Assembly (NCBI RefSeq): GCF_000022485.1
Contig: NC_012623.1
Span: 372,001 to 436,000 of the forward strand
Direction: 5' to 3'
DNA: 64,000 nucleotides
Source: Sulfolobus islandicus Y.N.15.51
GTDB lineage: Archaea; Thermoproteota; Thermoprotei_A; Sulfolobales; Sulfolobaceae
In this document: positions 1,141-61,820 of the stretch, one piece after another
Layout of the letters: each line of letters begins with the position of its first letter
Position numbering within the stretch: the stretch's first letter is position 1
Translations under genes and position numbers: made by a program
Notes under the pieces: model-generated
Database searches by the model: none
Told to the model about the DNA's origin: nothing
The model's input: only the letters and a program-made list of their open reading frames with translations

Positions 1141-2376
1141 ATGGCTTTAGGTATCGCGTTTTTAGGAAGCGGGTTTTCAGCTAGGTTTCATCTAAGGGGA
1201 TTAGTGGGAGTTAGAAATGTAGAAGTTAAGGGAGTTTATTCTAGAAATCTAAACTCTTCTAAAGAATTTGCTGGATTATCCGAACAACTGGGATTAGGGA
1301 AACCTAAAGTGTATGACGATATTAGTAAAATGCTATCAGATAAGGAGATTAATGCAGTATGGCTAACTGTCCCCAATGATGCACATTTAGAATACACGAA
1401 ATTAATTAGCGAAGAGGTCTCACAAGGGAGATCTAACGTAAATGGAATAGCCGTAGAAAAACCCTTAGCTAGAAATGTGAAGGAAGCTAAGGAGATGATC
1501 AGATTGGTGGAGAAGGCTGGTCTACTGCACGGATACTTGGAGAATCAGATCTTCATGCCTTCTGTGGTAAGGGCTAAGGAGGCTATCTGGGAGATGGGGG
1601 CGAGGAATTCCGGAAGACCATACTTGGCAAGAGCAGCTGAAGAGCACTCTGGCCCTCATAATAGCTGGTTTTGGAAACCAACTATTTCTGGTGGAGGGGC
1701 ATTAATAGATATGACTTGTCACAGTTTGGAGGCAACTAGATTTTTACTAACTGACCCTTCAAAGGATAAATCCTCACTTAAGCCGAAACACGTGTACGCT
1801 GTGATAGAAACGTTAAAGTGGAATAAGGAAGAGTATGCTAGGCATTTAAAAGAAAGGCATAACGTGGACTTCGTGAAGGAACCAGCTGAGGATTACGCAT
1901 TAACTGTTATAACTTATGAGGACGATATAGGGAATTTAATAATGGCTGAGACCAGGACTTCGTGGAACTTCGTTGGAGCTGGGCTTAGATTATCGGTTGA
2001 GGTGTTAGGGCCGGAATACAGTGTTAACATTAATACTCTACAATCGGAACTATCAACGTTCTTCAGTAGAAACATTAAACTTCCACCATCTGAAACTTTT
2101 GTCGAAAAGCAAAATGCAGACCAAGGATTAATGCCAATTATATCGGATGAGGCGGTAACTTACGGGTATCAAGGAGAGGATAGGCATATGGTTGAGTCTT
2201 TCCTATCCCGTAAAATGCCATTAGAAAATTGGTATGACGGATTATTAATAGTCCAACTTATGATGCACGCTTACCTTTCAGCTGAGAATGGGAGGAAGAT
2301 TAGTTTCGATCCACAGCAAGTAGAGGACTTCATACCCAAGGTAGCTAGAGAGAGTGTCCCAAGCGCAAATAATTGA
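1141..2376 (+). CDS. Gfo/Idh/MocA family oxidoreductase with IS-derived C-terminus
   Basis: A 411-residue NAD(P)-dependent sugar oxidoreductase of the Gfo/Idh/MocA family. The N-terminal Rossmann fold shows FLGSGFSARFH at residues 8-18, and the family EKP motif (AVEKPLA) is near residue 107. The second domain has IDMTCHSLE in place of the usual DxGxHxxD. I chose ATG 1141 rather than TTG 1123 because the Rossmann strand starts at once and 1123 would add six unrelated residues. The last codons (ESVPSANN plus stop) lie in the terminal inverted repeat of the adjoining IS. The host sequence beyond the IS would read VARGLYSTI and stop, so the native tail seems to have been swapped for IS-encoded residues. 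It probably remains functional. The substrate is unknown, likely a free sugar or glycoside. Confidence 0.85.
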   Translation: MALGIAFLGSGFSARFHLRGLVGVRNVEVKGVYSRNLNSSKEFAGLSEQLGLGKPKVYDDISKMLSDKEINAVWLTVPNDAHLEYTKLISEEVSQGRSNVNGIAVEKPLARNVKEAKEMIRLVEKAGLLHGYLENQIFMPSVVRAKEAIWEMGARNSGRPYLARAAEEHSGPHNSWFWKPTISGGGALIDMTCHSLEATRFLLTDPSKDKSSLKPKHVYAVIETLKWNKEEYARHLKERHNVDFVKEPAEDYALTVITYEDDIGNLIMAETRTSWNFVGAGLRLSVEVLGPEYSVNINTLQSELSTFFSRNIKLPPSETFVEKQNADQGLMPIISDEAVTYGYQGEDRHMVESFLSRKMPLENWYDGLLIVQLMMHAYLSAENGRKISFDPQQVEDFIPKVARESVPSANN

Positions 2377-9001: not shown

Positions 9002-10096
9002 ATGTTAGATATGAAATTAGGAATTGTAGGGCTAGGAGGATGGGTAACTACTGGCCATCTTCCAGCACTAACTGACTTGGGGATAAAAGTGGACTACTGC
9101 GCGGACATAGATGAAAAAAGAGTGAAAGATTTCTCTCAAAAAACAGGGTGTAAAGGTTATTTAGATTACAAGGAAATGCTAAGAAATGAAAATCCAGACC
9201 TCGTTTTAGTAGCAGTACCCCACAGCCTTCACGCAACCATAGCATTAGATGCCATAAATAGTGACGCAAATGTTTACGTGGAAAAGCCAATGGCTACTTC
9301 ATTTCAAGAGGCTTTAACACTAGTGGAGGCTTCGAGAAAAAGAAATAAGGTATTAGTTGTAGGCCATGAAAATAGGTTTAACCCAGCGATGTTAATTGCT
9401 AAGAAATTGATAAGAAGTGGTGAAGTAGGTAAAATATACCATATGAGAGGATTTTATATAAGGCAAAGAGGAATACCTACCTCACCGACATTCATTAAGA
9501 AGGACTTAGCTAAAGGTGGTGCAGTATTTGACATAGGTACACATATCGTAGATTTATTACTTTTCCTCTCAGACTTCCCAATGCCTAAAAGTGTTACGGG
9601 TAAAACATATAGCGCTTTCTCTAATGACAAGACTAAGTTCTCAGTTTATCCCTCACCTAATCTGCCTAACTTTAAGGTTGAGGTTGAGGATTTTGGTTCA
9701 GCCTTTTTAAATTTAGGGGACGAAATATCAGCCTACATGGAGGTGAGTTGGGCTTCATATATAAAGGAGAATAAAATGGAAGTAGTAGTTTTAGGAAATA
9801 AGGGTGGAATACATATAGATAATGGAATGTTAAATTTTATGAGGAATATTGCGGATGAACTCTTCCTCAGTACACCTTCAACTCAACAACAAAGAGGAAG
9901 CGTATATAGAGAGGTGTGGAGAACCGTCATGGATTCCATTTCAAAGGGAATCCCGGAGTACCCATTATGTTCAGCGGAACAAGGTGCTATAGGAGTAGCC
10001 ATACTAGAAAGTATATACAAATCGGCTTTAGAAGGGAGAGAGGTGAAAATAGATATCCCTCAATGGCTTCTTAAACAGTCTCAACCAGTATCTTAA
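9002..10096 (+). CDS. Gfo/Idh/MocA family oxidoreductase
   Basis: A 364-residue NAD(P)-dependent oxidoreductase. Rossmann motif GIVGLGGWVTTGH at residues 7-19; VYVEKPMA with EKP at 94-96; FDIGTHIVD with Asp177, His181 and Asp184 as the catalytic-site motif of the second domain. It is closest within the window to the gene at 16273: both share a RGIP...TFI segment near residue 157 and the same length. ATG 9002 is taken as start; ATG 9011 (residue 4) is equally good. It would oxidise a sugar or glycoside hydroxyl, or reduce the corresponding ketone. Its last 26 bases overlap the convergent ABC transporter gene. Confidence 0.88.
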   Translation: MLDMKLGIVGLGGWVTTGHLPALTDLGIKVDYCADIDEKRVKDFSQKTGCKGYLDYKEMLRNENPDLVLVAVPHSLHATIALDAINSDANVYVEKPMATSFQEALTLVEASRKRNKVLVVGHENRFNPAMLIAKKLIRSGEVGKIYHMRGFYIRQRGIPTSPTFIKKDLAKGGAVFDIGTHIVDLLLFLSDFPMPKSVTGKTYSAFSNDKTKFSVYPSPNLPNFKVEVEDFGSAFLNLGDEISAYMEVSWASYIKENKMEVVVLGNKGGIHIDNGMLNFMRNIADELFLSTPSTQQQRGSVYREVWRTVMDSISKGIPEYPLCSAEQGAIGVAILESIYKSALEGREVKIDIPQWLLKQSQPVS

Positions 10097-12757: not shown

Positions 12758-13717
12758 GTGAAAATTGCTGTAGTGGGATGTGACGGTTTCGGAAAAGTAC
12801 ATTTAAGGGCTATGAAGAATATAAGCGGAATAGACTATTACGTATTTAGCAGAAATGACGAAAAGGCAAGGGAGTGTGCAAAGGAGTTTAACGCAAAGAG
12901 TTATTTTACAAATTACGAAGATGTTATAAAATCAGATGTTGACATCGTTGACTTATTAGTGAGTCATGACCAACACTACCCAATGGGCGCAATGGCCATG
13001 AAGGCTGGGAAACACTTAATGCTTGAGAAGCCAATAGCGAGGACAATAGAAGAGGCAATGGGATTGATAAATACTGCAAAAGAGACTAAAAGGAAATTCA
13101 TGGTTTTGGAACAATTCTATTTCGAATCATCAGTTAGAAAGGCGAGGGAGCTTTTATCGAGATTAGGGAACCTATCCCTAATAATTGTGAGATCAACTCA
13201 CTTATATCAGCCAAAGGGATGGAGAAGAGAAAAGGAGAAAATGGGAGGAGGAGCACTTATAGATGGGGGTGTTCATTTCATAGATACATTGCTTAATTTA
13301 GGTGGAGAATACGAAAGCGTCAAGGGAATTTGTGGGAGATACTTCTCGGGTATAGAAGGAGAAGATTTAACTTTAGCCACTTTTAAGTTTAGAAAAGGAC
13401 ATCTAGGGCTATTATTATATAGTTGGGCAACCCCAAATCCACCAAAAGTGCCAGCGTTTGAGGTTTATGGGGAGAAAGGGAGTTTAATAGAAGATCCGAA
13501 TACGAGAGTTATGGGAAAGCCTTACGGAGATCTGATATTAAACGTTGATGGTAAAGAGGAAAGAATAGAGGTTGAAAAGGTGAATCCGATAGAGGAAGAA
13601 ATAAGGGGATTTGTAAACGCTGTGAAAAACAATACTGAAGTACCTATGCCACCTGAAATTGCCTTGAGGGATTTAAGAGCAGCTCTTGACGTTTACAAGT
13701 CATGTGGATTTTCCTAA
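12758..13717 (+). CDS. Gfo/Idh/MocA family oxidoreductase
   Basis: A compact 319-residue NAD(P)-dependent oxidoreductase. The nucleotide-binding loop reads AVVGCDGFGKVH at residues 4-15. EKP lies at residues 90-92 (LMLEKPIART), and the second-domain site is LIDGGVHFID with Asp169, His173 and Asp176. All catalytic elements are present. The start is GTG 12758; an AT-rich TATA-like stretch (GTTTAAATATTTAAA) lies about 20-33 bases upstream, so a leaderless transcript is likely. The gene is divergent from the ABC exporter (95 bases) and overlaps the convergent aldo/keto reductase by 18 bases. The substrate is unknown; a sugar or cyclitol is typical of the family. Confidence 0.87.
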   Translation: MKIAVVGCDGFGKVHLRAMKNISGIDYYVFSRNDEKARECAKEFNAKSYFTNYEDVIKSDVDIVDLLVSHDQHYPMGAMAMKAGKHLMLEKPIARTIEEAMGLINTAKETKRKFMVLEQFYFESSVRKARELLSRLGNLSLIIVRSTHLYQPKGWRREKEKMGGGALIDGGVHFIDTLLNLGGEYESVKGICGRYFSGIEGEDLTLATFKFRKGHLGLLLYSWATPNPPKVPAFEVYGEKGSLIEDPNTRVMGKPYGDLILNVDGKEERIEVEKVNPIEEEIRGFVNAVKNNTEVPMPPEIALRDLRAALDVYKSCGFS

Positions 13718-14725
13718 TATTTCCTCTATTCTTTTCATATGCTCATCTCTCAAATTCACATTTAACGCAGATAGGTTGTCCTCTAAATGCTCAACTTTAC
13801 TGGCTCCAATAAGTGGGATTACTGTAACACCGAGCTGTTCACCTCTCTTGAGAAGCCACGCGATAGCCAATTGGGACAGGGTTATCCCCAGTTCTGATGC
13901 AATATCCTTAAGCCCCAATAATATCTTTAAATTAGCGTCGGTAAAGTATCTTTTCTTTAAGTCTTCACTTATAGTAGCTCTACTAAGTTCCTCAACCTTC
14001 CAACCATTTCTATCCGTATACTTTCCAGTGAGAAACCCTTGAGCTAACGGTGAATAAGCCATAACTGCTAATCCATACCTTCTTGCGATATCAACCTTAT
14101 CTTTCTCTATATCCCTTTCCAACATGTTGTATTTCTCTTGCATTACCACGAATTTCTCCAAGTTATACCTCTTACTTAAATGTAGGAATTCCATCACATC
14201 AATTGCAGAATGATTACTAACGCCCAAATAATAAACTAAGCCATTGTTCACTAAACTATTCAGCGTTCTTAGGGTTTCCAGCTTGGGAGTATCGGGATCT
14301 GGCCAATGGATGAAATAGAGATCTATGTATGATGTGCCTAACCTTTTCAAGCTTTCCTTAATTTGCCATTGTATATGTTTCCTGGACAAACCTTCTCCAT
14401 TAGCGAACTCACCCATCTTACCCCTAACCTTAGTCGAAATTACGACAGATTCCCTATTCACAGTTTTTAGAAATTCTCCAACAATGCGCTCGGCATTACC
14501 TACATGTGCCAAATCCACTGGTGCCATAGCGCCGTGATATCTATTTGCAGTATCTATGAAGTTAACTCCCTCATCATATGCTCTTTTAAGGATCTTTAAT
14601 GTAGTTTCTTTATCCACTTTATGTATACCTAGTTCGTCCTTCTCTTGTAATATAGGAAGAAACCACGTACCTATAGCAACTTGAGATACCTTAACTCCAG
14701 AATCACCTAATTTAATATACTTCAT
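13700..14725 (-). CDS. Aldo/keto reductase
   Basis: A 341-residue NADPH-dependent aldo/keto reductase of the AKR superfamily, in the group of bacterial YajO/tas-like enzymes. The catalytic tetrad is visible: Asp58 and Tyr63 in NFIDTANRYHG, Lys99 in VVISTKVRG and His140 in LYFIHWPDP. The cofactor end shows VIPLIGASK near residue 309. It reduces aldehydes or ketones, such as sugar aldehydes, to alcohols, or runs the reverse reaction. A TATA-like ATAAATAG lies 25-35 bases before ATG 14725. It is tail-to-tail with the oxidoreductase at 12758, with overlapping 3' ends. In this neighbourhood it could reduce keto-sugars formed by the Gfo-type enzymes. Confidence 0.9.
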   Translation of the reverse strand: MKYIKLGDSGVKVSQVAIGTWFLPILQEKDELGIHKVDKETTLKILKRAYDEGVNFIDTANRYHGAMAPVDLAHVGNAERIVGEFLKTVNRESVVISTKVRGKMGEFANGEGLSRKHIQWQIKESLKRLGTSYIDLYFIHWPDPDTPKLETLRTLNSLVNNGLVYYLGVSNHSAIDVMEFLHLSKRYNLEKFVVMQEKYNMLERDIEKDKVDIARRYGLAVMAYSPLAQGFLTGKYTDRNGWKVEELSRATISEDLKKRYFTDANLKILLGLKDIASELGITLSQLAIAWLLKRGEQLGVTVIPLIGASKVEHLEDNLSALNVNLRDEHMKRIEEILGKST

Positions 14726-21025: not shown

Positions 21026-22800
21026 ACATTTTCAAGTCTCAGCACACCAAAAGAGTTTTCTTTTAACCTCACCCTGACCTCATTTTCATTAGATTGCAAT
21101 AATTTCATGTCTTCAACACTCTTTATTTTGTACTTTTTAGAATCAACACTTAACGTTAATCTAATTGGGAAGTCATTTAGATTTAAAACTGTCACAACTC
21201 CATCTCTTTTAACTATTAATGAAAACAAGAGGGGAGAAGCGGAAATAGCCTTTATACTGATATGCTCTCCAACGATATCCCTAATTATTTGTCTCGCAAT
21301 ACTAGGGTAAAACTCTGAAATCAGATATGGTAAATAGGAAGTAAGGGATATAACGTAAACTTTAGCATTGGAATAGGTATTCTGGAAGACTACTGGATAA
21401 AGTTCCGAATTGTCATAGGCGTAAAGAATTGGTGCAGCGCCGTTTAAGGAAAATATAGGCCCAATTGGAAAGTTTCCTTGCCTCTTATAGTATGCCCAAT
21501 AAAAAGTCTTTCCATCCTTAGTTAACGCATTTGCATTAACACTATCAAAAATTACGTTACTCACGCCAAGGATCTTTAATGCAGTATCTCCCAGAACTTC
21601 GATGAGTTTTTTAGCTGCACTGGCCGTGAACAGTAAGTTAACTCCTCTATTTAGTAAGTCGACAATGTCAATATGGTAAATATCTGACTCAGTAATGAGG
21701 ACTATATCGTTTGAATTTACAACGTTAGAAACTTCTAATGGAATTCCTATTATTCCCAAGTGATCTTCTACATATTTATCCACCCTTTGAGGTACAAAAT
21801 GCTGTACTGGTAACCTCTTCAAACCCATATTGCCATATTCCTTAATGTCTACTCTCCACTTCTGTACCTTTTCCTTATTTTCCTTAATACCCTCAAATAA
21901 GTGCCACCTCTCAAGGTCTAAAATATCCCCAGCCTCAAACAAAGTTAACTCTTCAGTAAGGCCAAATGCACTCAAAATGAATTGTTGTAAATACGTTTTA
22001 AGACTACCGTAATCCCCACCTTCTCCACCTATGAAGGTATCAAACCAAACTCCCTTTAACTTATCACCAACTATACCCCTTACGTAGTCCACTATGTAAA
22101 GTGAGCCATATCTCGCAGTGTATTCCCTAGCCTCAGTACCTACATAAATGTTATCAAAGATTTCAGACAACTTATCTAACTTAAGACCTTTATGATAGAA
22201 GTCTTCTCTCCACTCAGCAACCTTTAGAGTTATCTTAATTTTGCCGTTTATTCTCTTAGCCGGCTCTACAACGTAATCCCTTGAAACGTTATAGACCAGA
22301 GAAGAAGAGTAGTCACACCATAAACGTGATATGACTGGATCTCTCAACATTTTAACTAACGTATCTCTAGTGAAGTTTAATCCATACATCGAGTTAAACA
22401 GTTTAACGTCAATCTCAGAGTGGCACCAATTAGCCCAAAAATCGTCAATTATTATCTCGTCAAAAACACTTGCGTGCTCTTCAACAACTCTTTTGACTAA
22501 TTCCCTATTTCTCTCATCAGCTAAACAAGCTACTTTGAAACCAAAATTCTCCATTTCACCCCAACCTTCACCCCACGTGCCAATAGCAATCCCTCCAGCA
22601 ACTTCAAACTGTTTCCCAAAAACCTCTTTGAACTTAACCATTGTATTCGCATCCAGCGTTAGCCCATCCCTATAATTCTCCAAATAGACCTTAGATACTC
22701 CCAGCTCTTTAAGCTTTTCAATAAGATGATTGGTCCTTTCTTCATTTAGACTCTTTAGAGTTGGGGCTGTAACGTAAACGGCTAACTTGAATTCCTTCAT
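21022..22800 (-). CDS. Putative glycoside hydrolase of unassigned family
   Basis: A 592-residue cytoplasmic protein with no signal peptide that I cannot place in a named family. Residues 1 to about 330 look like a TIM barrel: alternating strands such as [51 protein letters not shown] and [12 protein letters not shown], several ending in acids and aromatics typical of sugar-binding barrels. About 345-470 resembles a GATase-like domain ([33 protein letters not shown]). About 490-592 is a beta domain ([16 protein letters not shown]). This three-part plan matches GH42-like enzymes. The gene lies between lacS and xylS, 32 bases upstream of the xylS stop on the same strand, so it may be read from the xylS transcript. 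Confidence 0.6.
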
Positions 22801-36432: not shown

Positions 36433-37242
36433 ATGTATTGGAAAGTAGGAATCATATCAGACGAGATCTCTCTCGATTTCGAGCACGCAGTAAAAGTGAT
36501 AAAAGAGCTAGGTGCAATTCACGTTGAAGTAAGAAATTTATGGAATAAGAATATAACACAAGTATCAGACTCCGAATTTTCAGAAATAAGGAACATTGTT
36601 GAAAAATATGGGTTAACTATTTCGAATTTAGATTCTCCTACCTTTAAAATATATATTAATGACGAGAAGGGTTATAAAGAGCACTTACAAATCTTGAGGA
36701 AGGTAATAGAGTTAAGTAAGAAAATTGACATAAACTATACTAGAATATTCACCTTTTGGTACGAGGGGGAATTAAAATATTATATTGATAAGCTAGCTGA
36801 GAGGTTTAACAGTGCCATTGATATAGCTGAAAGTGAAGGGGTAACATTAGTGATAGAGAATGAGTACAGTTGTCTCGTGGGAATTGGTAAAGAACTTAGA
36901 ACGTTTTTGGACAAAATAAAGTCAAAATGGGTTAGGGTATTATGGGATCCTGGTAATGCATTTTTCGCTAGGGAAACGCCTTATCCAGACGGATACGAAT
37001 TAATAAAAGATGACATCATGCACTTGCACATCAAAGACGCTATGGTTAAAGATGGGCACTTCATTTGGATGCCAGTGGGAAAAGGGATGATAGACTATAA
37101 GGGGCAATTAAGAGTATTAAAGGGTAAGCCATATGTAATATCTTTAGAAACTCATTATAGAAATGCCGCAAATGACCCAGAGGCAAGTACTAAGGAGTCC
37201 TTCAATGGCTTAATGAAAATATTAAGGGAGATAACAAGTTGA
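36433..37242 (+). CDS. Sugar phosphate isomerase/epimerase-like TIM barrel (AP_endonuc_2 fold)
   Basis: A 269-residue protein of the xylose-isomerase-like TIM-barrel superfamily (AP_endonuc_2). Metal-site residues appear in GVTLVIENEYSCLVG (Glu), VRVLWDPGNAFF (Asp), DDIMHLHIKDA (His) and PYVISLETHY (Glu). It would isomerise or epimerise a sugar or keto-sugar, or act as a C-glycoside/keto-glycoside lyase-type enzyme. I chose ATG 36433 (MYWKVGIISDEISLD) over TTG 36394 because the first barrel strand starts there and a TATA box sits 22-31 bases upstream. It is isolated: dead genes lie on both sides. Confidence 0.83.
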   Translation: MYWKVGIISDEISLDFEHAVKVIKELGAIHVEVRNLWNKNITQVSDSEFSEIRNIVEKYGLTISNLDSPTFKIYINDEKGYKEHLQILRKVIELSKKIDINYTRIFTFWYEGELKYYIDKLAERFNSAIDIAESEGVTLVIENEYSCLVGIGKELRTFLDKIKSKWVRVLWDPGNAFFARETPYPDGYELIKDDIMHLHIKDAMVKDGHFIWMPVGKGMIDYKGQLRVLKGKPYVISLETHYRNAANDPEASTKESFNGLMKILREITS

Positions 37243-40101: not shown

Positions 40102-40958
40102 TTGACTAGTTTAAATACTTCTCTACTATCCAGTGAATAAGTAAGCTCTTTAAATAAGAGAAATATTTTGATAATATAGCATCACTACTATCTAGTTCTA
40201 GATGCCACATTTTCTCGCACTCAACTGATAAGTAATATCTCTAGCCAATGCTCTTTAAGTCTTTAGTTATCTTCTATAAAAGGAACTATACCTTTACATT
40301 GTTTATCAAGTTCTTTACTTTTTATTCTGTATCGCAAAATCCTCAATATGAACTTGGAATATTCCTTCAGATATTAACCGGAAAACCCCATTATGAGAAT
40401 CATCTGAAAAAACACGTTAGTGGGATCATAGACGAATCCTAAATCCCCATTAAGTTCTCATAAAAGTTTAATCGTGCATCCTTCGCATGAAATTTCTATG
40501 AGAATTTTAACGTAATAGTCTTAGGTAATCTCATTAATCCTATCAATGATTAAGCTATTCCGTGAATTGGTCTTTTCTTCTGCGACTTCGCCCTCCATAT
40601 ACTCTCACTCCCAAAGCGTTTAGACTGCTGTACCCATTTTTATTAATGTTTCCAAAATGTTTTCTCTTCATTTTTGTCTCAGTTTTACCAGCGAAATAGA
40701 ACCTATCATATCTACCAAATCAGAAGTTGTTATGGAGGAAAGATTTCTGTCCTTCCTTATTTGTTGGGAGAAAAACTCTGATTTCGAATGTTTACCATTA
40801 TCTACTACTATCAACTCCTACATCAAGCCCAACCTTACTCCTTCTCTCTACAACATCCTCTAAGTTTAACTCTAGATAAATGTAAAGCTAGTAAACACAA
40901 TTTCCATTAGGAAAAAGGTTAGCAATATATTTTATAAATTTTCTACGAAGATTAAGAT
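40102..40958. other. Gene relics of unknown origin and aldolase promoter
   Basis: Short open stretches at 40248-40442 (SQNPQYELGIFLQILTGKPH) and 40657-40863 (EVVMEERFLSFLICWEKNSD) have protein-like composition but no continuous frame; they may be transposase or host-gene scraps. I could not identify them. ATATATTTTATAAATT at 40926-40941 is a likely TATA region for the gene at 40959. Confidence 0.4.
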
Positions 40959-44212: not shown

Positions 44213-45205
44213 ATAATTATACCGAGTATTACTCATGGGAAAGAGTAAGTACAAGAGGGATTGGAGCAAGTACGACGAGAACGTTATAACTAGATACGAG
44301 CTAATGTTCCCCTTCTACGTCTTCCAACACTGGTGGGAATTACTAGCAGAAGAGAATAGGAATGCCAAGAAAACCTACAAGGCGCCAAAGGAGTTCAACG
44401 ACTTCCTAGCGTTCCTGCACTTGTTCCTACCTTATAGGGCCATAGAAGGAGTATTGAGAGCATTAGAAAGACTGAAAATCATCCCAACAAGCCTAGACTA
44501 CTCAACAATATGGGAAAGAGTAAGAAACATGAACATAAAATTCCCAGAGGCAAATGACCAACTTGAAGTAATAGCAGACGCAACGGGAATAAGCACAAAC
44601 AAGGGAGGACAATACATTATAGCAAAATGGGGAAAAACCAAGGACTCAAAATTCCTCAAGATCGAAATAGTAATGGATAAGGACCAATTCAACGTAATAA
44701 ACGCTGAAGTAACCAGCAACGAGGTTCAGACTGCAGTTAAGACGGTTAAGGATTTACAAGATAAGGGAAAGAAGGTCAAGAAGTTTTATGGAGATAAAGC
44801 TTATGATGCTAATGAGGTTTACAAGACTGGGGTTGAGGTTGTTGTTCCACCTAGGGAGAACGCCTCCACTAGACGCGGTCATCCTGCTAGGAGAAAGGCT
44901 GTAAGGGAGTTCAAGAGGTTGGGTTATAATCGTTGGAGGGAGGAGAGGGGTTACGGTGTTAGGTGGAGGATTGAGTCCTTATTCTCTGCTGTGAAGCGTA
45001 CTTTTGGGGAATCTGTTAGGGCTACAAGTTTTTTAGGACAAGTGGTTGAGGCTAAGCTCAAGTTCTGGGCTTATGCATGGATGGTCCACTTGGCTAATTC
45101 TTTAGTTGGTAGAGCTCCGGGTATTAGGGTGTGAGCTTGCGAATAACGTTGAAATAAATATTAATTACTGAAAAATTCTCAGTGCATCATATCATGCTTA
45201 TGAAA
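44213..45205 (+). mobile_element. IS5-family element (possibly ISC1058-like)
   Basis: Inserted in the DUF2139-like gene: host coding sequence stops at about 44212 and resumes at about 45206. It holds one intact transposase. I could not define inverted repeats or a target duplication, so both boundaries may be off by 10-20 bases. The bases before the transposase start (CGAGTATTACTCATGGG) resemble those before the IS1-family transposase at 33015. Confidence 0.65.
44235..45134 (+). CDS. IS5-family transposase
   Basis: A 299-residue DDE transposase without visible damage. The N-terminal DUF772-like helices (NDFLAFLHLFLPYRAIEGVL) are followed by the catalytic core: VIADATGIS (first Asp), KKFYGDKAYDANEVYK (second Asp) and RWRIESLFSAVKRTFGE with the R..E arrangement for the third acid. 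It moves the element that interrupts the DUF2139-like gene. The start is ATG 44235. Because the frame is intact, this insertion is probably more recent than the other decay in the host gene. Confidence 0.9.
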   Translation: MGKSKYKRDWSKYDENVITRYELMFPFYVFQHWWELLAEENRNAKKTYKAPKEFNDFLAFLHLFLPYRAIEGVLRALERLKIIPTSLDYSTIWERVRNMNIKFPEANDQLEVIADATGISTNKGGQYIIAKWGKTKDSKFLKIEIVMDKDQFNVINAEVTSNEVQTAVKTVKDLQDKGKKVKKFYGDKAYDANEVYKTGVEVVVPPRENASTRRGHPARRKAVREFKRLGYNRWREERGYGVRWRIESLFSAVKRTFGESVRATSFLGQVVEAKLKFWAYAWMVHLANSLVGRAPGIRV

Positions 45206-53174: not shown

Positions 53175-55337
53175 TTATCTTCTTCTTAGGCCTAGTACTA
53201 CAACAGCTATTATTATGACTATTATTACAACTGCTATTATGACATATAGTGCGGTATTGGATGATGAGCTTACAGTAGTAGTAACAGTAGCCGTAGTAGT
53301 GCTTACGGATGTAGAGACACTTGTGGTAGTTGAAACACTCGTAGTAGTAGTAGTACTTGTTGTTGTAGTAGTACTTGTTGTGGTGGATGTGGTTGTTGTA
53401 GTAGTTGTTGATGTACTTGTGGTAGTACTAGGTGTTGTAGTAGTTGTGGTTGTTTGATACACGAATGGGTCATTGGAAGTATACCAACTTGAAGGAACTT
53501 GTGAAGTATAATACCACCAAGGCTCAGGAACAGACTGATTAACCAAATGTAAGGCTAAAACAACAGGTAAAGGAGTTGAGGGAAGACTGGTCCATGGGGG
53601 AGCCGGCCAATAATAGTTTTGCTGAGTTGGCCAACCAGTAACAGTATTGTTAACATACTCATACCACTCTGCGCCGTATACTAGAGCAATGGAAGGCATA
53701 TATTTTATCCATAGAGCAGCTAGCTTATTTACTATACTATAATAGGCATTATCGTTTATGCTGAAGTTACCATTTGCCCAGTTCACAAGTTGTTCGAACG
53801 TTGGATGGATAATTGATAAATTAAACCTTTCTATGTTAAAATATGTGCTATTTCCTATCGGTGTTATGTTGCCGGGGGAATTCCAATAACCATACAAATA
53901 CCCAGAAAGTGGTTGTATAGGAGTAGGACCGCTAATTAAATCCCACATTAGTCCCATCCAGTAATTGCCAGTTTCCATGTAATTATACCATGTTGTAAAC
54001 GGTGGTGTTTGTACTTCCACAGTTATGCCTATTTGCTTCAAATCCTGCGCAATTATAGTTAAATCAGCATCCCAATCAGTCCATCCGGCTACCGTAATTA
54101 TGGCCATTGTTGGTACTGCAGTACCATTTGGTGCAATTAGTTGGCCATTAACTAATTTATAGCCATGGGATTCAAGTAACTGTAATGCAGCAGTAACATT
54201 ACCTTGAGATGGAGCAAACTGCTCAGCAAGCTGCAATACCGAAGAATTTAGATATTGTATCTGTTGTGGAGGTAATGGAAGAGGCGTAGTTGCTGGCGGT
54301 TCGTATCCATATTCGCCCAAATAGTATATTGCTGTTCTATTGATCGCAAGGCTTATTGCTTGTCTTAAAACTGGATCGGATAAAGGCCATTTTAGGTTAT
54401 TGAGTGTCAACATTGTTGGAAATCCAGGAGCAAAATAGTAATGATAGTGTAGAGGATCTTTTGCCACAAATTGCTGTTGTATATTTGGTTCGAATAGTCC
54501 AGCCCAAGTTATTTGCCCATTATTTAATGCAGTATCTGCTTGAACATTACTAGGATATGATGGATAGAGTAAGTATTTTATTCTGGGTTCTCCCGGCATC
54601 CAATAGTGTGGGTTGGCCACTAGTACTATTTCTTGCGGGCTGAAACTATATAGCATATAAGGTCCAGTACCTATTGGATTTGTATTAGGGTATGTGAATG
54701 GATTTCCAGTCTTGTTTAGTCCTACATATGTTCCATTTGGTAATTGCTCTACTGGGAATATTTTACCCCATTGTGCTGGGTCCACAGGCCATTGCTCCAA
54801 AATAGTATACAATACCATTGGAGTTACTCCAGGTTTAAATACCATTTCTAGCTCATATGGATTTATTATTGTCATGTTAGCTATTTGATTAGCCGAATAT
54901 GCCAGTTGTGGGTACGCTTGTTCTAACGCTAATGTGTACCATACTGCTGTAGCGTTAAATGGTGTACCATCAGTGAAGTATACATCATGCCTTAAGTATA
55001 ATATTAATGCCAATGTTTGTACCTTAGTACCATTTGGCAAGTAAACATAACCAGTAGTAAATGTCCAATTGGTGGCTAACCATGGAATAGTTTGACCACT
55101 TAGCGAATTAACTTGGGCGAGTGGTTCGTAAATAAGCCAAATTAGACCACCGGGTAAAGCTGGAGCGTTCCATGGATTAAAATTATCTTGCCATACTATG
55201 CCCGGAGAAGGCATAACTACCATACTTCCTTCTGGTTGTACTGATGTTGGCTGTGATAGTATTGGCATTGCAAATATTCCTATGCTTATTAACATCAATA
55301 CTGTGATTATTGTAGAAATTATCTTGTACCTTTTCAT
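53175..55337 (-). CDS. ABC transporter substrate-binding protein, Ser/Thr-stalked
   Basis: A 720-residue extracytoplasmic binding protein of the dipeptide/oligopeptide-oligosaccharide (SBP_bac_5) family. Residues 1-29 are a signal peptide (ISTIITVLMLISIGIFAMPI). The binding domain has WQDNFNPWNAPALPGGLIW and GPYMLYSFSPQEIVLVANPHYW. At about 627-690 there is a stalk almost wholly of Thr and Ser, probably glycosylated, then a membrane anchor ending LGLRRR (697-720). This is the usual Sulfolobales layout for sugar-binding proteins facing the S-layer. The ligand is likely a hemicellulose oligosaccharide, judged from context. It has its own promoter, 155 bases from the ATPase gene upstream. Confidence 0.9.
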   Translation of the reverse strand: MKRYKIISTIITVLMLISIGIFAMPILSQPTSVQPEGSMVVMPSPGIVWQDNFNPWNAPALPGGLIWLIYEPLAQVNSLSGQTIPWLATNWTFTTGYVYLPNGTKVQTLALILYLRHDVYFTDGTPFNATAVWYTLALEQAYPQLAYSANQIANMTIINPYELEMVFKPGVTPMVLYTILEQWPVDPAQWGKIFPVEQLPNGTYVGLNKTGNPFTYPNTNPIGTGPYMLYSFSPQEIVLVANPHYWMPGEPRIKYLLYPSYPSNVQADTALNNGQITWAGLFEPNIQQQFVAKDPLHYHYYFAPGFPTMLTLNNLKWPLSDPVLRQAISLAINRTAIYYLGEYGYEPPATTPLPLPPQQIQYLNSSVLQLAEQFAPSQGNVTAALQLLESHGYKLVNGQLIAPNGTAVPTMAIITVAGWTDWDADLTIIAQDLKQIGITVEVQTPPFTTWYNYMETGNYWMGLMWDLISGPTPIQPLSGYLYGYWNSPGNITPIGNSTYFNIERFNLSIIHPTFEQLVNWANGNFSINDNAYYSIVNKLAALWIKYMPSIALVYGAEWYEYVNNTVTGWPTQQNYYWPAPPWTSLPSTPLPVVLALHLVNQSVPEPWWYYTSQVPSSWYTSNDPFVYQTTTTTTTPSTTTSTSTTTTTTTSTTTSTTTTTSTTTTTSVSTTTSVSTSVSTTTATVTTTVSSSSNTALYVIIAVVIIVIIIAVVVLGLRRR

Positions 55338-55492
55338 ACCTATCTACCACTTATCGATTTATAATAGCATTTTAGCCATATTTAAACTTTTCTTCACTAC
55401 TCAAATCACAATTTCCTTGCAACCTAATTAGTGATACAATCTCTTAATAGTTTTTCAAACAAATTCAATAGAAATTAGGAATATAAAAAATG

Positions 55493-56296
55493 TTATTCAA
55501 TTCTTTTATATGGATCTGGTACCGCTTCTGCTAATAGTCTGGTATAATCGTGTTTTGGATGGGAAATAATAGTTTCCACATCGCCCTCCTCCACTATCCT
55601 ACCATTCTTCACGACATATACCCTATCAGCTACATATCCAATTGTAGCAATATCGTGAGTGATGTACATAATTGATATCCCTTTCTCATCTCTTAACCTC
55701 TTAAATAAGTCTAGTAGTGATGCCCTTATTGAGGCATCTACGTTTGATACAGGCTCATCAGCTATTAGCACCTTAGGATTTAGTGCCAATACCCTAGCTA
55801 AATAGACTCTTTGTCTTTGCCCTCCAGAAAGTTGGAACGGATACTTATTGAGAAAGTCTTCTGGAGGAGTTAATGCAACTTCTCTTAATAACTCTTTGAT
55901 TCTCTCTTCAATATCGCCCTTATATTTGTATATTTTTAGCGGTCTTTCTATATGCCATTTAACTGTATGAGCTGGGTCTAGAGAGGAATAGGGATCTTGG
56001 AAAACTAATTGAACATCAGCTCTATACTGTTTTAGTTGTTTTTTATCCGCCTTGGTAACATCTAAACCCATAGGGGTATAAATTATTGAACCTTTGGTCG
56101 GTTTCAATAACCCTACTATCATCCAAGCTATTACTGTCTTACCCCCACCGCTTCCTCCAACCATCCCCACAATCTCGTTCTTCCTTATATTCATATTCAC
56201 ATCCCATATCCCCGGTCTATGCTCTTTTCCAAAAACTCCTTTTCTAACTATGAAGTCTTTATACACATGTATTAGCTCAATGAGCCTATCACTCAT
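55493..56296 (-). CDS. ABC transporter ATPase, OppF/DppF type
   Basis: A 267-residue ATPase with Walker A GGSGGGKTV, Q-loop VQLVFQDPYSSLDPAH, signature FQLSGGQRQRVYLAR, Walker B VLIADEPVSN and the switch His in YITHDIATIGY. Walker A reads GGSGGGKT in place of GxSGSGKS, still a functional form. It pairs with the ATPase at 56289 to drive the importer. ATG 56296 overlaps that gene's 3' end by 8 bases, with a GAGGTG ribosome-binding sequence 9 bases upstream: this is the last gene of the four-gene operon 59282-55493. Confidence 0.92.
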   Translation of the reverse strand: MSDRLIELIHVYKDFIVRKGVFGKEHRPGIWDVNMNIRKNEIVGMVGGSGGGKTVIAWMIVGLLKPTKGSIIYTPMGLDVTKADKKQLKQYRADVQLVFQDPYSSLDPAHTVKWHIERPLKIYKYKGDIEERIKELLREVALTPPEDFLNKYPFQLSGGQRQRVYLARVLALNPKVLIADEPVSNVDASIRASLLDLFKRLRDEKGISIMYITHDIATIGYVADRVYVVKNGRIVEEGDVETIISHPKHDYTRLLAEAVPDPYKRIE

Positions 56297-57284
56297 AAGC
56301 TTTTTTCACCTCATTTCTCCATTCTGGATACCTAATACACTTATAAAATCCAAACTTATCATATGCTACGGTTTGAGGTGGAGCTTCTTTACATGTAATC
56401 GTGGCAAAGGGACATCTCGAAGAAAAGACACAGCCTTTAGGATATCTTATAAAACCTTCAAAATCCCCAGGAATTCTAGGTAGTTTCTTCCCTCTAGATC
56501 TAACAGTAGGTACACTACTAAGCAGAAGATAAGTGTAGGGATGATAAGCTTCCTCTAATAACGTATTATACTTCCCATACTCTACTATTTGCCCACCGTA
56601 CATTACAGCTATGTAATCTGATATTTGGAATAGCATTGCTATGTCATGACTTATAATTACCAATGTTAAATCCTTTTCCTTCTGTATTTTCTTTAATAAT
56701 TTGAGTATTTCATATTGAACTACTACGTCTAATCCCGTAGTGGGTTCGTCCATTATGAGTATTTTTGGATTTAATAGGAGTGAGATTGCAATTACAACCC
56801 TCTGTTTCATACCACCAGACAACTGGAAAGCGTACATATCTAGTACTTGCCTATCAGTAAACCCTACTTCTTCCAACGCGTTATATACAACGTTAATGTT
56901 GGCATAATAATCCATTCCTTTAGCCTTTAAGATATCTGTAAAAGTTTCCTTAACCTTTCTAATTGGGTTTAGGGAGTTTTGAGCAGCTTGAGGAACGTAA
57001 GATATTACACTTCCCCTTATTTTATTTAACTCATCTCTAGACATCGATAGAATATCGTACTTGCCATCTACAATTACACTACCCCTTTGTACATATAATG
57101 GGGGATTTATAAATCCCATTGTCGTTGTTGCCAGAGTAGATTTTCCAGAACCTGACTCTCCTGCGATACCTGTTATTTTACTTTCTGGAATGTCAATACT
57201 GACATCTCTTAGGACTTTTATTATACCATAGTCTGATAAGTAACCCACGTTTAGGTTTTTTACTGATATCGAGATTTCACTCAT
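56289..57284 (-). CDS. ABC transporter ATPase, OppD/DppD type
   Basis: A 331-residue ATPase with Walker A GESGSGKSTL, Q-loop YVPQAAQNSLNP, signature FQLSGGMKQRVVIA, Walker B ILIMDEPTTGLD and ISHDIAMLFQISD. The C-terminal 70 residues carry the oligopeptide-type extension with GCVFSSRCPFATITC and a later Cys, which in some members bind an iron-sulfur cluster. ATG 57284 overlaps the permease stop by four bases with GAGGTG upstream. It works with the adjoining ATPase and two permeases. Confidence 0.92.
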   Translation of the reverse strand: MSEISISVKNLNVGYLSDYGIIKVLRDVSIDIPESKITGIAGESGSGKSTLATTTMGFINPPLYVQRGSVIVDGKYDILSMSRDELNKIRGSVISYVPQAAQNSLNPIRKVKETFTDILKAKGMDYYANINVVYNALEEVGFTDRQVLDMYAFQLSGGMKQRVVIAISLLLNPKILIMDEPTTGLDVVVQYEILKLLKKIQKEKDLTLVIISHDIAMLFQISDYIAVMYGGQIVEYGKYNTLLEEAYHPYTYLLLSSVPTVRSRGKKLPRIPGDFEGFIRYPKGCVFSSRCPFATITCKEAPPQTVAYDKFGFYKCIRYPEWRNEVKKAYE

Positions 57285-58252
57285 CTAGTCAACACCTCCT
57301 CCTTCTCTTTTGCTTTTTCTATTTTTTTCATATATTTCTTTACGTCCCATATTCTTAGCCTTGGATTCGCAACTCTATCAATCCCTATGTTAATTAAAGC
57401 GAATGAAAAAGCCACTAAACCAATCATGAGTCCAGGGGGAATGTACCACCACCATAATCCTCTTAGATAAGCCTCTCCTCCTAAAGACCAATAGAGCATG
57501 GTTCCCCAATTGACTTGTGTTAGACTACCCAATCCAAAATAATAAATGAATGTAAAGCCAGCGATACCATAAATTGCAGTAAAGAAGAAGTTTGAAGCTA
57601 TGAACGGTAGGTTATTAGGTATTATTTGATTAAAAATTATACTTAATTTAGACTCGCCAATAAGATCAGAAGATAATATATACTCTCTCCTCCTTAACGA
57701 TAACACTAAAGATCTCAGCACTCTAGCACCCCATGCCCAGCCAGTTAATGAAAGGACGAATAAAATTGTTATATATCCTAATTTAAACTGTACTGCTCCT
57801 AGATATGCTCCTATTAATTCGATAATCAAAATACCGGGTATTATTAAGAAAATCTGAGTTATTGCACTTAATACTCTATCAATCATTGTCTCTGCATATA
57901 ATCCTGCAGTTACTCCTATGAGGATAGCTATTAGCGTACCTATTAATCCTACAGCAAAACCTACTCCAATTACTGGAAATCCACCTACTAAAAGTTGAGA
58001 AAAAATATCATGGCCATAATCATCCGTGCCTAATAAGTGTTGAGGTGAGGGTGGTAGATCCCTAGGAAAGTTAGTCGCGCTTGGATTATATGGAGTATAA
58101 AATATGCCTATTAAGGAAAATACTATTATCCCTAGTAGTATATAGAACCCAACTCTTGATACTCTTTGTTCCCACACACCTCTTATTAGATTATAAACCG
58201 GACCGTACTTGTCTATTTTTAAATTAAAAGTATATAACTTTCTGCTAGCCAT
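57281..58252 (-). CDS. ABC transporter permease, OppC/DppC type
   Basis: A 323-residue membrane protein with about six hydrophobic segments. The N-terminus (FYILLGIIVFSLIGIFYTPYNP) and HLLGTDDYGHDIFSQLLVGG are OppC/DppC signatures, and the cytoplasmic EAA-like loop is VLRSLVLSLRRREYILSSDL. It forms the transmembrane pore with the protein at 58254. ATG 58252 follows that gene by one base, with GGAGGG 9 bases upstream as ribosome-binding site, so the two are translated together. Confidence 0.92.
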   Translation of the reverse strand: MASRKLYTFNLKIDKYGPVYNLIRGVWEQRVSRVGFYILLGIIVFSLIGIFYTPYNPSATNFPRDLPPSPQHLLGTDDYGHDIFSQLLVGGFPVIGVGFAVGLIGTLIAILIGVTAGLYAETMIDRVLSAITQIFLIIPGILIIELIGAYLGAVQFKLGYITILFVLSLTGWAWGARVLRSLVLSLRRREYILSSDLIGESKLSIIFNQIIPNNLPFIASNFFFTAIYGIAGFTFIYYFGLGSLTQVNWGTMLYWSLGGEAYLRGLWWWYIPPGLMIGLVAFSFALINIGIDRVANPRLRIWDVKKYMKKIEKAKEKEEVLTR

Positions 58253-58253
58253 C

Positions 58254-59282
58254 TTATAAACCCTCCGTCTCCTCTTGACTTGCCCTAGGATCTATAATTG
58301 TGTAAATTATATCGGCGACGAAATTACTTAATACCATCGCAGTGACTAGCATGAAAAATATTCCGCTTAGTAACGGGTAATCCAAACCGGTAATGGCTTG
58401 ATTAAAAAAGTAGCCCAAACCTGCATAGTTAAATAAATACTCTATCGCAACAGCACCCAACACAGAGTATCCTAAGGAAATGGAGAAACTGGTAAAGTTA
58501 GGTAATAATGCTAACCTATAGGCCTTACTTGCAACCATTTTTTCTGATACCCCCATTAACCTATAATAATTCATATAATCCTCTTGTAAAATGGGTATCA
58601 TATTATTCCTCATTCCCATTATCCAACCAGCTAGGGAAAAGATAATTAGAGTTAATGTGGGTAATATTGCATGATATATTACGGACCACACAAAGGGCAA
58701 ACTCATAGTAGGTTTGAGAAATTGAAAGGTATTATACTGCCCACCTGTAGGGAATATGTGAAGATCAATTGCTAGTACTTCTATTAAAATCTCCCCAGTA
58801 ACAAAAACAGGAAACGTATATAAAAACATCATGAGTCCCAATATGGCGTAGTCACTTATTTTACCTCTTGACAAAGCAGCCACTCTGCCAAGCAAATTAC
58901 CTATGAAGAAAGAGGCTACAATAGCTGGTATTACTATACCAAAAGTCCAAGGAGCAGCTTCAGTTATTATTGTGCTTACAGATACTGGAAATTCGGTAAG
59001 AGAAACACCGAAATTCAGTGTAACTATTTCTTTTAAGTAATTAAAATACTGAATATAAAGAGGTTGTTGATACTGAGCTAAACCTAATTGCTGAACAAGA
59101 ATTTGAATCTCTTGTTGAACATTTTGCCCATAATTGGATCCAGCTCCACCAATTCTACTATAAATTATGCTTGCCAATGCACTACCAGGTATTAGCCTAG
59201 GAAGGATAAAATCTATTGTAATTCCAATAAACCAAACTATGATGTAATATATACCCCTTTTGATCAAGAAATCTCGTCTCAT
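58254..59282 (-). CDS. ABC transporter permease, OppB/DppB type
   Basis: A 342-residue permease: an N-terminal membrane segment (GIYYIIVWFIGITIDFILPR), LYIQYFNYLKEIVTLNFGVS, a loop with EAA-type sequence (MRNNMIPILQEDYMNYYRLM) and further membrane spans. The frame runs up to 59366, but I start at ATG 59282 (MRRDFLIKRG) since the first permease helix begins there, as in family members; the 28 extra residues would add an unusual hydrophobic leader. It is the first gene of the importer operon. TATA-like ATTTATATATCT lies 36-47 bases before 59282, giving a short leader. Confidence 0.87.
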   Translation of the reverse strand: MRRDFLIKRGIYYIIVWFIGITIDFILPRLIPGSALASIIYSRIGGAGSNYGQNVQQEIQILVQQLGLAQYQQPLYIQYFNYLKEIVTLNFGVSLTEFPVSVSTIITEAAPWTFGIVIPAIVASFFIGNLLGRVAALSRGKISDYAILGLMMFLYTFPVFVTGEILIEVLAIDLHIFPTGGQYNTFQFLKPTMSLPFVWSVIYHAILPTLTLIIFSLAGWIMGMRNNMIPILQEDYMNYYRLMGVSEKMVASKAYRLALLPNFTSFSISLGYSVLGAVAIEYLFNYAGLGYFFNQAITGLDYPLLSGIFFMLVTAMVLSNFVADIIYTIIDPRASQEETEGL

Positions 59283-59869
59283 TAGAGACCCACTATTAGA
59301 ATCTTTGAAATAGAGATATATAAATATGACTATGAACAACAATTTTGTTAATTTAGTATAAATCATATAAAGTATTCATTTATTTTCAATTCTACATATG
59401 ATTTGACTGTTGACGAAGAGAAGATGTCGCAATTTCTAAATCCTTTCTCAAAAAATTTTGTTGCACAATTAAAGGATTTAACAAAATTGGTATTAGAGAA
59501 ATTTAAACTAAGTTTCAAATAAATGAAATTGTTATCCACACTTCATAAATATTATATGTAAAAAACTTAAACTACTAAAACAGTTCTAGATCTTTAAATG
59601 AGTATCTGCACAAGGGTTGTGATAAAAGAAGTGTTAAATCGTATTAAAAATTGAAAATAGTCTTTAGACTTAATGAAGTTCTATCTCTTTTTTCTCAGCA
59701 TACCAAAAAAATAGCAACTTTTACTCGATAAGACTAATCTCCTCGTTATGTATCCCTCTTAAGTTTGTTGATTTTCGTTACTAGTTAGATCATTTTTACT
59801 GCATGAAGCAGTTCCTTCCTAAGCGTGAAGACTATATTATTTTTTATTTTAATATTTAACTCTCAATAC
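59283..59869. other. Intergenic with a possible short gene
   Basis: Between the divergent importer operon and the oxidoreductase. A plus-strand frame at 59403-59522 (TTG start, 39 residues: MSQFLNPFSKNFVAQLKDL and on to KFKLSFK) has protein-like amphipathic composition but no clear promoter; it may be the tail of a lost gene. TATTTTTTATTTTAATATTTAAC near 59837-59859 supplies a TATA box 20-30 bases before ATG 59870. Confidence 0.4.
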
Positions 59870-60940
59870 ATGTCAAAGAGAATTGGTGTAGCGGTTGTAG
59901 GTCTAGGCTCAATTGGTAAAACTCACGTAAAAGCATTAAAGGACTTAGAAAAGGAAACAGAATTCGTAAAACTAGTTGCGGTAGTGGATCAGATTAAGGC
60001 AATAGCAGAAAAAATAGGAAGTGAATACGGTACACCCTATTATACCACTATAGATGAAGTATTAAGAAACTCAGAGGTCGATGTCATAAGCATAGCAACC
60101 CCTTCCTATTTGCACGCACCCCAGGCTATTTTAGCAATTGAATATGGAAAACACGTAATAGTCGAAAAGCCAATGGCTACCACTCTAGCTGGAGCTAGAG
60201 AGATGGTAAGTAGGGCTGAGAGAAATGAGGTTAAACTAGGAGTAATATTCCAAGAGAGATATGCCCCTGACATAAGGAGGTTAAAGAACGATATCTTGAA
60301 AGAGCTTGGTAGAATATATTTGATAGAGTCAGAATTGAAATGGTACCGTGATATGAAGGGATATTATAAGAGGGATGAGATAGCTAGGAGTTGGAGGGGC
60401 ATGTGGAACACAGAAGGAGGTGGAGTTATGACAAATCAAGGTATACATACTATTGATTTAATGATATGGCTTAATGGTGAAGTGGAAGAGGTGTCTGGAT
60501 TTGTTGACAATTTAACTCATGATGGAATCGAAGTCGAGGACACAGCAGTCGCGATTATGAGATACAAGAACGGAGCATTAGGTACTATTTCTCAAACAGT
60601 CTCAATGAAGCCCACTACTTACCAATACAGGAAGATTAGGGTAAATGGAAGTAATGGGTTTGTGGAAATTACTGACGGTAGTCTTAGTACAGTCGCAATT
60701 GAGGGTAAAATAGAGGAGTCAAAATCCAGTGTTGAATATAAGAAAGAAACGATAGCTCAGCCAGGTAATTTGCATAAGGAGTTGCTCAGAGATTTCTTAA
60801 GGGCTCTATCAGAGGATAATGATTTTCCGATAAATGGAAAAGAGGGTATGAAAAGCTTAGAGGTGATAAAAGCCGTTTACCTTTCCTCAGTTAATAGACA
60901 AGTAGTGAAGTTACCTTTAGATGTTAGGATTGTAGTGTAA
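59870..60940 (+). CDS. Gfo/Idh/MocA family oxidoreductase
   Basis: A 356-residue NAD(P)-dependent oxidoreductase. VAVVGLGSIGKTHVKAL at residues 7-23 binds the cofactor; VIVEKPMATT holds EKP at 99-101; the second-domain site reads VMTNQGIHTIDLMIW, with Asn in place of the first Asp but His and Asp kept, the inositol dehydrogenase-like form. I start at ATG 59870, not TTG 59825, because a TATA box is 20-30 bases before it and the Rossmann strand begins at once. The AP_endonuc_2-fold gene follows on the same strand after 181 bases. The pair recalls oxidise-and-eliminate glycoside degradation in bacteria; that is inference. Confidence 0.9.
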   Translation: MSKRIGVAVVGLGSIGKTHVKALKDLEKETEFVKLVAVVDQIKAIAEKIGSEYGTPYYTTIDEVLRNSEVDVISIATPSYLHAPQAILAIEYGKHVIVEKPMATTLAGAREMVSRAERNEVKLGVIFQERYAPDIRRLKNDILKELGRIYLIESELKWYRDMKGYYKRDEIARSWRGMWNTEGGGVMTNQGIHTIDLMIWLNGEVEEVSGFVDNLTHDGIEVEDTAVAIMRYKNGALGTISQTVSMKPTTYQYRKIRVNGSNGFVEITDGSLSTVAIEGKIEESKSSVEYKKETIAQPGNLHKELLRDFLRALSEDNDFPINGKEGMKSLEVIKAVYLSSVNRQVVKLPLDVRIVV

Positions 60941-61121
60941 CCATTTTATTATTCATACTTCCTAGCTGATTACGATTAAGAACTTTTTTCGCATCTTTCC
61001 TTATTTTTTAAAAACTATTCTAGATCTCAAAAAAGTTGAACAGTGCTTACTACTCTTTAATAATTTTTTGGTTAACTAGTTAAAGCTAAATTTAAATATC
61101 AAATACGTGTTCCTCTCATCT

Positions 61122-61820
61122 ATGAAACTCGGAATACAAAGTTATTCGCTTAGGAAATTAACTTATGAGAATGCTTTAAAGGTAATGTCTGAGTTAGGAA
61201 TATCCTACGTTGAAGCGTTCCCAAGACACTTGCCTCCTTCTTCTAATAGTGTTAAGGATATAATCAATTTACATAAAGAAAACGGAGTCAAAGTTATCGC
61301 CCATGGGGTTAACCATCTTAAGAGCGATAAGAAAGAGTTGAGAAGTATCTTCGACTTCGCAAACAAGGTTGAAATTGAGGTAATAACTGCGGATCCAGAC
61401 GAGGATTGCCTTAACTTGATGAGTGACCTAGTAAAGGAATACGACATTAAAGTTGCCATACATAATCATGGTCCCTATCATAGATGGGGGTCTTATAAGA
61501 AGATTTACGAGTTCACGAAAAACTTAGATTATAGAGTTGGAATGTGTCTTGATCTAGCCCACTTATTTAGATATGGCGAGAATCCAATTGAGGCAGTAAA
61601 TACACTAAGGGATAGAATTCACGACATTCATGTAAAAGATGTAAATAATAAGGGAGAGGACGTAATAGTGGGTAGTGGAATTTTAGATGTGAAGGGAGTT
61701 ATAGACAAGGTAAAGGAGTTGAATCTAGACATACCGCTAATGATAGAATATGAGCCAGAACCAGAAAACCCTCTTCCGGGAATAGTTAAGTCCTTGGAGT
61801 ACGTGAAAAAACTACTCTAG
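61122..61820 (+). CDS. Sugar phosphate isomerase/epimerase-like TIM barrel (AP_endonuc_2 fold)
   Basis: A compact 232-residue TIM barrel. [20 protein letters not shown] opens the first strand, and metal-site residues appear in [28 protein letters not shown] (Asp, His), [11 protein letters not shown] (His) and [13 protein letters not shown] (Glu). It would isomerise or epimerise a keto-sugar or sugar phosphate; related folds cleave 3-keto-glycosides. ATG 61122 is preferred to GTG 61107 because the TATA-like AAATTTAAATAT is about 25-36 bases before it. It overlaps the convergent malA by 9 bases. Confidence 0.86.

Follow-up and report, generated by a model that had tools for sequence, protein, structure and literature searches.

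A dehydrogenase and metalloenzyme gene pair in a Sulfolobus islandicus glycosidase island: a possible oxidation-elimination route for O-glycosides

If a sugar dehydrogenase and a metal-dependent TIM-barrel enzyme are encoded side by side among glycosidase genes, their products could cleave glycosides without hydrolysis, by oxidising the sugar and then eliminating its partner. An earlier note on 64,000 nucleotides of Sulfolobus islandicus Y.N.15.51 (hereafter the window; NC_012623.1, positions 372,001 to 436,000) raised this question, and proposed an archaeal version of the bacterial DgpA/CarA and CarB/C systems. The oxidise-then-eliminate idea is sustained by AtOGE-type residues and a recurrent association with Gfo/Idh/MocA (Gfo) genes, but its placement with the DgpA/CarA and CarB/C systems is unsupported. 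We put at roughly 0.55 the probability that the pair provides two steps of an oxidation-elimination O-glycosidase pathway, in a form resembling the O-glycoside beta-eliminase AtOGE and not DgpB/CarB. The island is a classic source of the thermostable glycosidases LacS, XylS and MalA.

The gene pair and its island

59870..60940, +: Gfo/Idh/MocA dehydrogenase, SSO3049-like (Gfo-59870); PF01408 2.8e-31, PF02894, PF22725
61091-61098, +: TATA-like box TTTAAATA, about 27 nt 5' of the AP-61122 ATG
61122..61820, +: AP_endonuc_2 (xylose-isomerase-like TIM barrel) metalloenzyme, SSO3050-like (AP-61122); PF01261 1.2e-22
53175..59366, -: Opp-type ABC importer (SBP5, OppF, OppD, OppC, OppB), divergent from the pair
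1141..2376, +: Gfo-1141, by Pfam; its sister-genus homologue is gene 3 of a Gfo-AP-Gfo operon (L037, L038)
9002..10096, +: Gfo-9002, by Pfam; its sister-genus homologue opens that operon, whose AP gene is of the AP-61122 family (L037, L038)
13700..14725, -: aldo/keto reductase, PF00248 1.2e-73; candidate 3-keto-glucose reductase
36433..37242, +: second AP_endonuc_2 protein (AP-36433), strand-5 motif E-N-E; PF01261 4.6e-35
about 40139..40817, -: decayed, frame-shifted third AP_endonuc_2 gene; tblastn 8.8e-32, the match split over three frames and broken by stops

Both reading frames of the pair are intact, that of Gfo-59870 giving 356 aa from its ATG (the mechanical GTG start is at 59825) and that of AP-61122 giving 232 aa. 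Pfam bears out the earlier note's list of five Gfo genes (1141, 9002, 12758, 16273 and 59870) and two AP_endonuc_2 genes (36433 and 61122) among genes for GH1, GH2, GH3, GH31 (two), GH78, GH116, an aldo/keto reductase and two MFS transporters; its AP_endonuc_2 tally is right for intact copies but missed the decayed one. This concentration is more than chance: the window holds five of the genome's six PF01408 genes above cut-off and two of its three PF01261 genes; for 64 kb out of 2.85 Mb, the binomial probability is 3e-8 for the first count and 1.5e-3 for the second.

The decayed gene lies between GH3 and DHDPS genes. Its intact relatives have E-T-H at strand 5, and in the nearest relative (G136) the frame is open and encodes 263 aa. 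The region is about 74% identical between the two genomes; the 61122 protein, in contrast, is nearly identical.

The earlier note had the pair adjacent and co-directional, as it is, yet the two genes probably do not form one transcript, because the 181-bp gap between them contains the TATA-like TTTAAATA. Judged by the TATA-to-start spacing usual in archaeal promoters, AP-61122 probably has its own, leaderless transcript. A scan for the ARA box gave no match near the pair. The divergent Opp-type importer, whose position beside the pair is retained in most Saccharolobus genomes, may be the nearest clue to the pair's substrate.

The island is closed by a 693-aa GH31 gene; by this terminal gene, gene order and GH content, it appears to be the counterpart of Saccharolobus solfataricus SSO3004-SSO3051, hence the names SSO3049-like and SSO3050-like for the pair. 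The SSO3050 name is backed by an aIF5A pull-down (PMC6105217) that lists the protein as a xylose isomerase of 27 kDa. This was the only mention of SSO3050 that we found, and our search turned up no paper on the function of either SSO3049 or SSO3050. Our literature search likewise found no role for the island's five dehydrogenases and two metal enzymes.

Relatives and residues of the two proteins

Gfo-59870 combines a Rossmann domain with a C-terminal domain (PF01408, PF02894 and PF22725, all above cut-offs) and has the EKP lysine within EKPMATT. Its best solved relatives are 3q2i (3.3e-42) and 3q2k, the glucuronide-3-dehydrogenase 8tdi (2.5e-24), glucose-fructose oxidoreductase and DgpA (7xr9, 3.7e-19); 3q2i and 3q2k are presumably WlbA, a UDP-sugar C3 dehydrogenase. 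C3 oxidation is the activity of several of these relatives, and we propose from the sequence that Gfo-59870 is an NAD(P)-dependent glycoside 3-dehydrogenase. Because it falls under every NCBIfam equivalog cut-off (IolG nominally first, 135.8 bits vs 355; BT_2158 35.9 vs 750; BT_2159 36.1 vs 650; levoglucosan dehydrogenase 94.5 vs 650), the C3 regiochemistry is one that we infer.

By profile, the nearest characterised relative of AP-61122 is AtOGE (8BVK, 2e-12). The family profile ranks above it three uncharacterised Parabacteroides structures (3P6L, 3LMZ and 4KW2, the nearest solved structures, at about 30% identity and TM 0.78-0.94) and below it MJ1311, Art22, IolE, IolI and epimerases; further matches are AtHYD (8RO4) at 1.9e-5, YcjR at 0.019 and D-tagatose 3-epimerase at 0.08. 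In AtOGE, the metal-coordinating and base residues are His132, His134, Asp163, His189 and Glu233, and Glu39 is also named (PMC10628242). The alignment places all of them in AP-61122, as His114, His116, Asp144, His170, Glu209 and Glu31, respectively, and Lys191 as Lys172, giving His114-x-His116 and His170-x-Lys172. These metal and base positions and the lysine are invariant or nearly so in alignments of the target family (that of AP-61122), and His114-Asn115-His116 is invariant. The observations on which our reading draws, namely the families, the residues and the gene association, are established here, and on the residues we propose AP-61122 as a putative 3-keto-glycoside beta-eliminase. We found no demonstrated activity in the literature for any enzyme of its subfamily.

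The main reading has points against it at the level of the proteins themselves. AP-61122 is only about 18% identical to AtOGE, and the tree places OGE proteins in a separate clade outside the target family (support 100/99). The structure-based search that the earlier note had suggested did match DgpB-C, but it did not separate eliminases from epimerases: with an AlphaFold model of pLDDT 96.6, Foldseek against the PDB returned UlaE, IolI, Art22, epimerases, YcjR and DgpB-C all at about 1e-11 to 1e-12, AtOGE was absent from the first 50 matches, and because such different enzymes score alike the search is unspecific for function. The top Foldseek matches of AP-36433 are epimerases.

The C-glycoside deglycosidases can be set aside as a model for AP-61122. 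DgpA with DgpB/C and CarB/C (PMC8563793) share with the archaeal pair a common fold, a divalent metal, Asp/His/Lys/Glu ligands and keto-sugar logic. However, these enzymes have Glu-x-His at strand 5, with Glu as the ligand (PMC10628242, PMC8563793; e.g., Glu147/His149 of AgCGD2), where AP-61122 has His114-Asn115-His116; they also depend on a second subunit and often carry a lid domain, for which 232 aa is too short. The C-glycoside beta subunit PF19906 was not found in the genome, in a search that was also silent in control genomes, and nothing in the pair or its setting indicates C-glycosides.

Gene neighbourhoods in archaea and bacteria

An order-wide survey of 197 genomes found orthologues of AP-61122 in each of the seven Saccharolobus genomes, including the present one, and in two of a sister genus, and orthologues of Gfo-59870 in 16 genomes. 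The co-occurrence on which the earlier note had staked its proposal is thus seen in other Sulfolobales, both genes being present in six of six other Saccharolobus genomes sampled. Five of the seven Saccharolobus genomes have the two genes side by side in the same direction; in another they are neighbours but convergent, and in the last about 8 kb separates them. The pairing is not exclusive, and orthologues of either gene take other partners elsewhere. In the sister genus, the AP orthologue lies in a tight operon, flanked by homologues of Gfo-9002 and Gfo-1141 and adjoining an MFS gene in the one genome examined. The Gfo-59870 orthologue abuts an AP-36433 homologue in G125, and in five further genomes it lies between AP genes of the AP-36433 and E-T-H types; AP-36433 orthologues flank or abut it at loci L049-L053 and L056. 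No AP gene was seen beside it in G024, G044 and G127. Since the partner family is usually kept while the subfamily changes, shared chemistry is suggested, and the Gfo and AP modules look exchangeable.

Outside the order, the target family also occurs next to Gfo in a Thermoproteota MAG and in Halorubrum. Distant Thermoproteota MAGs with the family are represented by loci L152 (G436), L153 (G493) and L154 (G439); L152 has a second AP_endonuc_2 gene 3 kb off that is nearer AtOGE (27% identity).

Target-family genes beside Gfo are distributed over Saccharolobus, its sister genus, haloarchaea, Runella, Granulicella, Armatimonadia and Bacteroidota, and among the best plasmid matches those of Runella (two), Granulicella, Parabacteroides (one of two) and Halorubrum adjoin Gfo. 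In Parabacteroides, 6 bp separate the family gene from a preceding gene for a BT_2158-family glycoside 3-dehydrogenase (892.8 bits against a cut-off of 750), and the operon also encodes a DUF1080 protein; in Draconibacterium and Mariniphaga, the family gene has a PF06439 3-keto-disaccharide hydrolase gene immediately on one side and Gfo genes on the other. In an Armatimonadia MAG, the genes after the family gene encode a Gfo enzyme resembling levoglucosan dehydrogenase and a larger AP_endonuc_2 protein. The Granulicella operon (L161:5875-8288) reads Gfo, AP (H-N-H), cupin, AP (E-N-E). Both AP types of the window, the E-N-E one a homologue of AP-36433, coexist in one bacterial operon.

Against this pattern, many planctomycete family members have no Gfo gene within 6 kb, and none was present in 65 of 80 contig loci, mainly planctomycete, as judged within the retrieved stretch by a five-sequence Gfo model. 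The tree groups the Thermoproteota proteins with operon-borne Bacteroidota and Granulicella (95/80), apart from the main planctomycete group; its outliers are one Parabacteroides sequence, whose branch is very long, and the Halorubrum sequence, placed elsewhere. Because the patterns of the contig search included IHNH, its motif count is biased, and tblastn matches obtained without that pattern were used in its place. Neither a Shinella match nor the Arthrobacter levoglucosan-like loci, which fall short of the 650-bit cut-off, served as evidence.

A proposed pathway and its alternatives

In the reading that we favour, Gfo-59870 would use NAD(P)+ to oxidise an imported O-glycoside or oligosaccharide at its C3 hydroxyl. 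AP-61122 would then bind the 3-keto-glycoside on a divalent metal held by His114, Asp144, His170 and Glu209, and cleave it in a Mn2+-dependent reaction in which His116, acting as base, would take the C2 proton and the C1 bond would break by beta-elimination, releasing the free partner and 2-hydroxy-3-keto-glucal. The glycal may be hydrated by a second AP_endonuc_2 enzyme (36433, or one of the E-T-H type in relatives), which makes AP-36433 a candidate hydratase or isomerase within the same pathway. The resulting 3-keto-glucose could be returned to glucose by a Gfo enzyme or by an aldo/keto reductase; several such reductase genes turn up repeatedly near the pair in relatives, and the one at 13700..14725 is a possible, if weak, candidate. 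The substrate, the preference for elimination over hydration and the parts assigned to the other genes are, like these steps, proposals read from the sequence and its setting.

One close parallel is the Agrobacterium phlorizin pathway (GlycDH, AtOGE, AtHYD and a Gfo reductase; PMC10628242): the AtOGE metal and base residues are all kept here, and two AP_endonuc_2 types are likewise clustered with a Gfo enzyme, but its first step is taken by a flavoenzyme where we propose a Gfo dehydrogenase. The levoglucosan pathway LgdA-LgdB1-LgdB2-LgdC (PMC7676230) also joins a Gfo dehydrogenase, an AP_endonuc_2 eliminase and an importer; its LgdB1 candidate shares the H-x-H of AP-61122, whereas Gfo-59870 is far from levoglucosan dehydrogenase. 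Operons of the Bacteroides BT2156-BT2160 type resemble those in Parabacteroides where a target-family gene stands beside a BT_2158-family dehydrogenase. They encode a DUF1080 protein, and some of their proteins have TAT signals, whereas both archaeal proteins begin at the catalytic domain and DUF1080 is missing from the archaeal genome. The DUF1080 protein may be what cleaves the bond in Bacteroidota, which would leave the AP protein there with another role.

This last point bears on the strongest alternative, an improbable one, that AP-61122 is the 2-hydroxy-3-keto-glucal hydratase of the same pathway and another protein breaks the bond. Bacteroidota members do lie beside a PF06439 protein, a possible cleaver, and AtHYD is itself an AP_endonuc_2 enzyme, if a weak match. 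In the whole archaeal genome, however, no PF06439 or DUF1080 gene was found, and there is therefore no other obvious lyase. Moreover, H-x-H at strand 5 is common to AP-61122, the OGE orthologues and an AP gene, probably LgdB1 as judged by neighbourhood only, that adjoins a genuine levoglucosan dehydrogenase (723.8 bits against a cut-off of 650), whereas AtHYD orthologues have E-x-H (E-T-H and E-I-H) and relatives of AP-36433 have E-N-E; elimination is favoured over hydration on these grounds. The AtOGE orthologue also scores far better against AP-61122 than the AtHYD orthologue does, and an AtHYD-type assignment is disfavoured.

Epimerases of the AP_endonuc_2 fold normally have Glu at strand 5, and the His of AP-61122 speaks against a second, less probable alternative, that the pair interconverts glycoside epimers, with Gfo-59870 making the 3-keto-glycoside and AP-61122 epimerising C4 in the manner of E. 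coli YcjS/YcjR. YcjR is an AP_endonuc_2 enzyme likewise clustered with sugar dehydrogenases and an ABC importer (PMC11543891), and it is among the Foldseek matches, but its profile match is the marginal one given above.

About equally unlikely is an ordinary ketose 3-epimerase or hydroxypyruvate isomerase that happens to lie beside an unrelated sugar dehydrogenase. The shared fold, the Gfo-less planctomycete members and the probably separate promoters would suit it, and the last two, with the sub-threshold equivalog scores of Gfo-59870, also count against our own reading. Against incidental adjacency, the hydroxypyruvate isomerase profile did not match AP-61122 at 1e-3 and tagatose epimerase matched only weakly, so that the clustering with these enzymes that the earlier note had named as fatal to its proposal did not appear; Gfo neighbours of differing types also recur in archaea and several bacterial phyla. 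Least probable is inositol catabolism by an IolG-like 2-dehydrogenase and an IolE-like inosose dehydratase: these are nominally the top NCBIfam matches, but both are under cut-off (IolE at 33.3 bits vs 290, which leaves AP-61122 with no equivalog assignment), IolD above cut-off is absent from the genome, and the surroundings are glycosidases and oligosaccharide importers.

If oxidation-elimination is correct, the pair represents a variant, in archaea, of a pathway known from bacteria; the main texts of PMC8563793, PMC10628242 and PMC10066097 treat the 3-keto-glycoside route in bacteria, and the word archaea is absent from them. At about 80 C, a model archaeon would then have a second chemistry for degrading glycosides, and thermostable eliminases for glycoside cleavage would become available. 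At about this temperature, 3-keto-sugars are fragile. More speculatively, and with odds somewhat against it, thermoacidophilic archaea may possess, beside their hydrolases, a complete and modular glycoside pathway of oxidation, elimination, hydration and reduction, with a distinct H-N-H AP_endonuc_2 subfamily and exchangeable Gfo partners, cleaving bonds that ordinary glycosidases do not. Strain PBL2025, which is without SSO3004-SSO3050 (PMC8037382), makes the question directly testable.

Other genes of the island merit mention. A 592-aa protein (21022-22800, -) had no match in Pfam, NCBIfam or PDB; its homologues recur by Gfo, AP and Opp genes at loci L035, L036 and L056, and it is possibly a further member of the pathway. 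Transposase genes lie at 2876-4120 and 44235-45134 (IS256/Mutator and DDE_Tnp_1). The GH78 gene (26182-28833, -) encodes an 883-aa rhamnosidase; the first characterised archaeal GH78 dates from 2026 and comes from the Pisciarelli site (PMC12921842).
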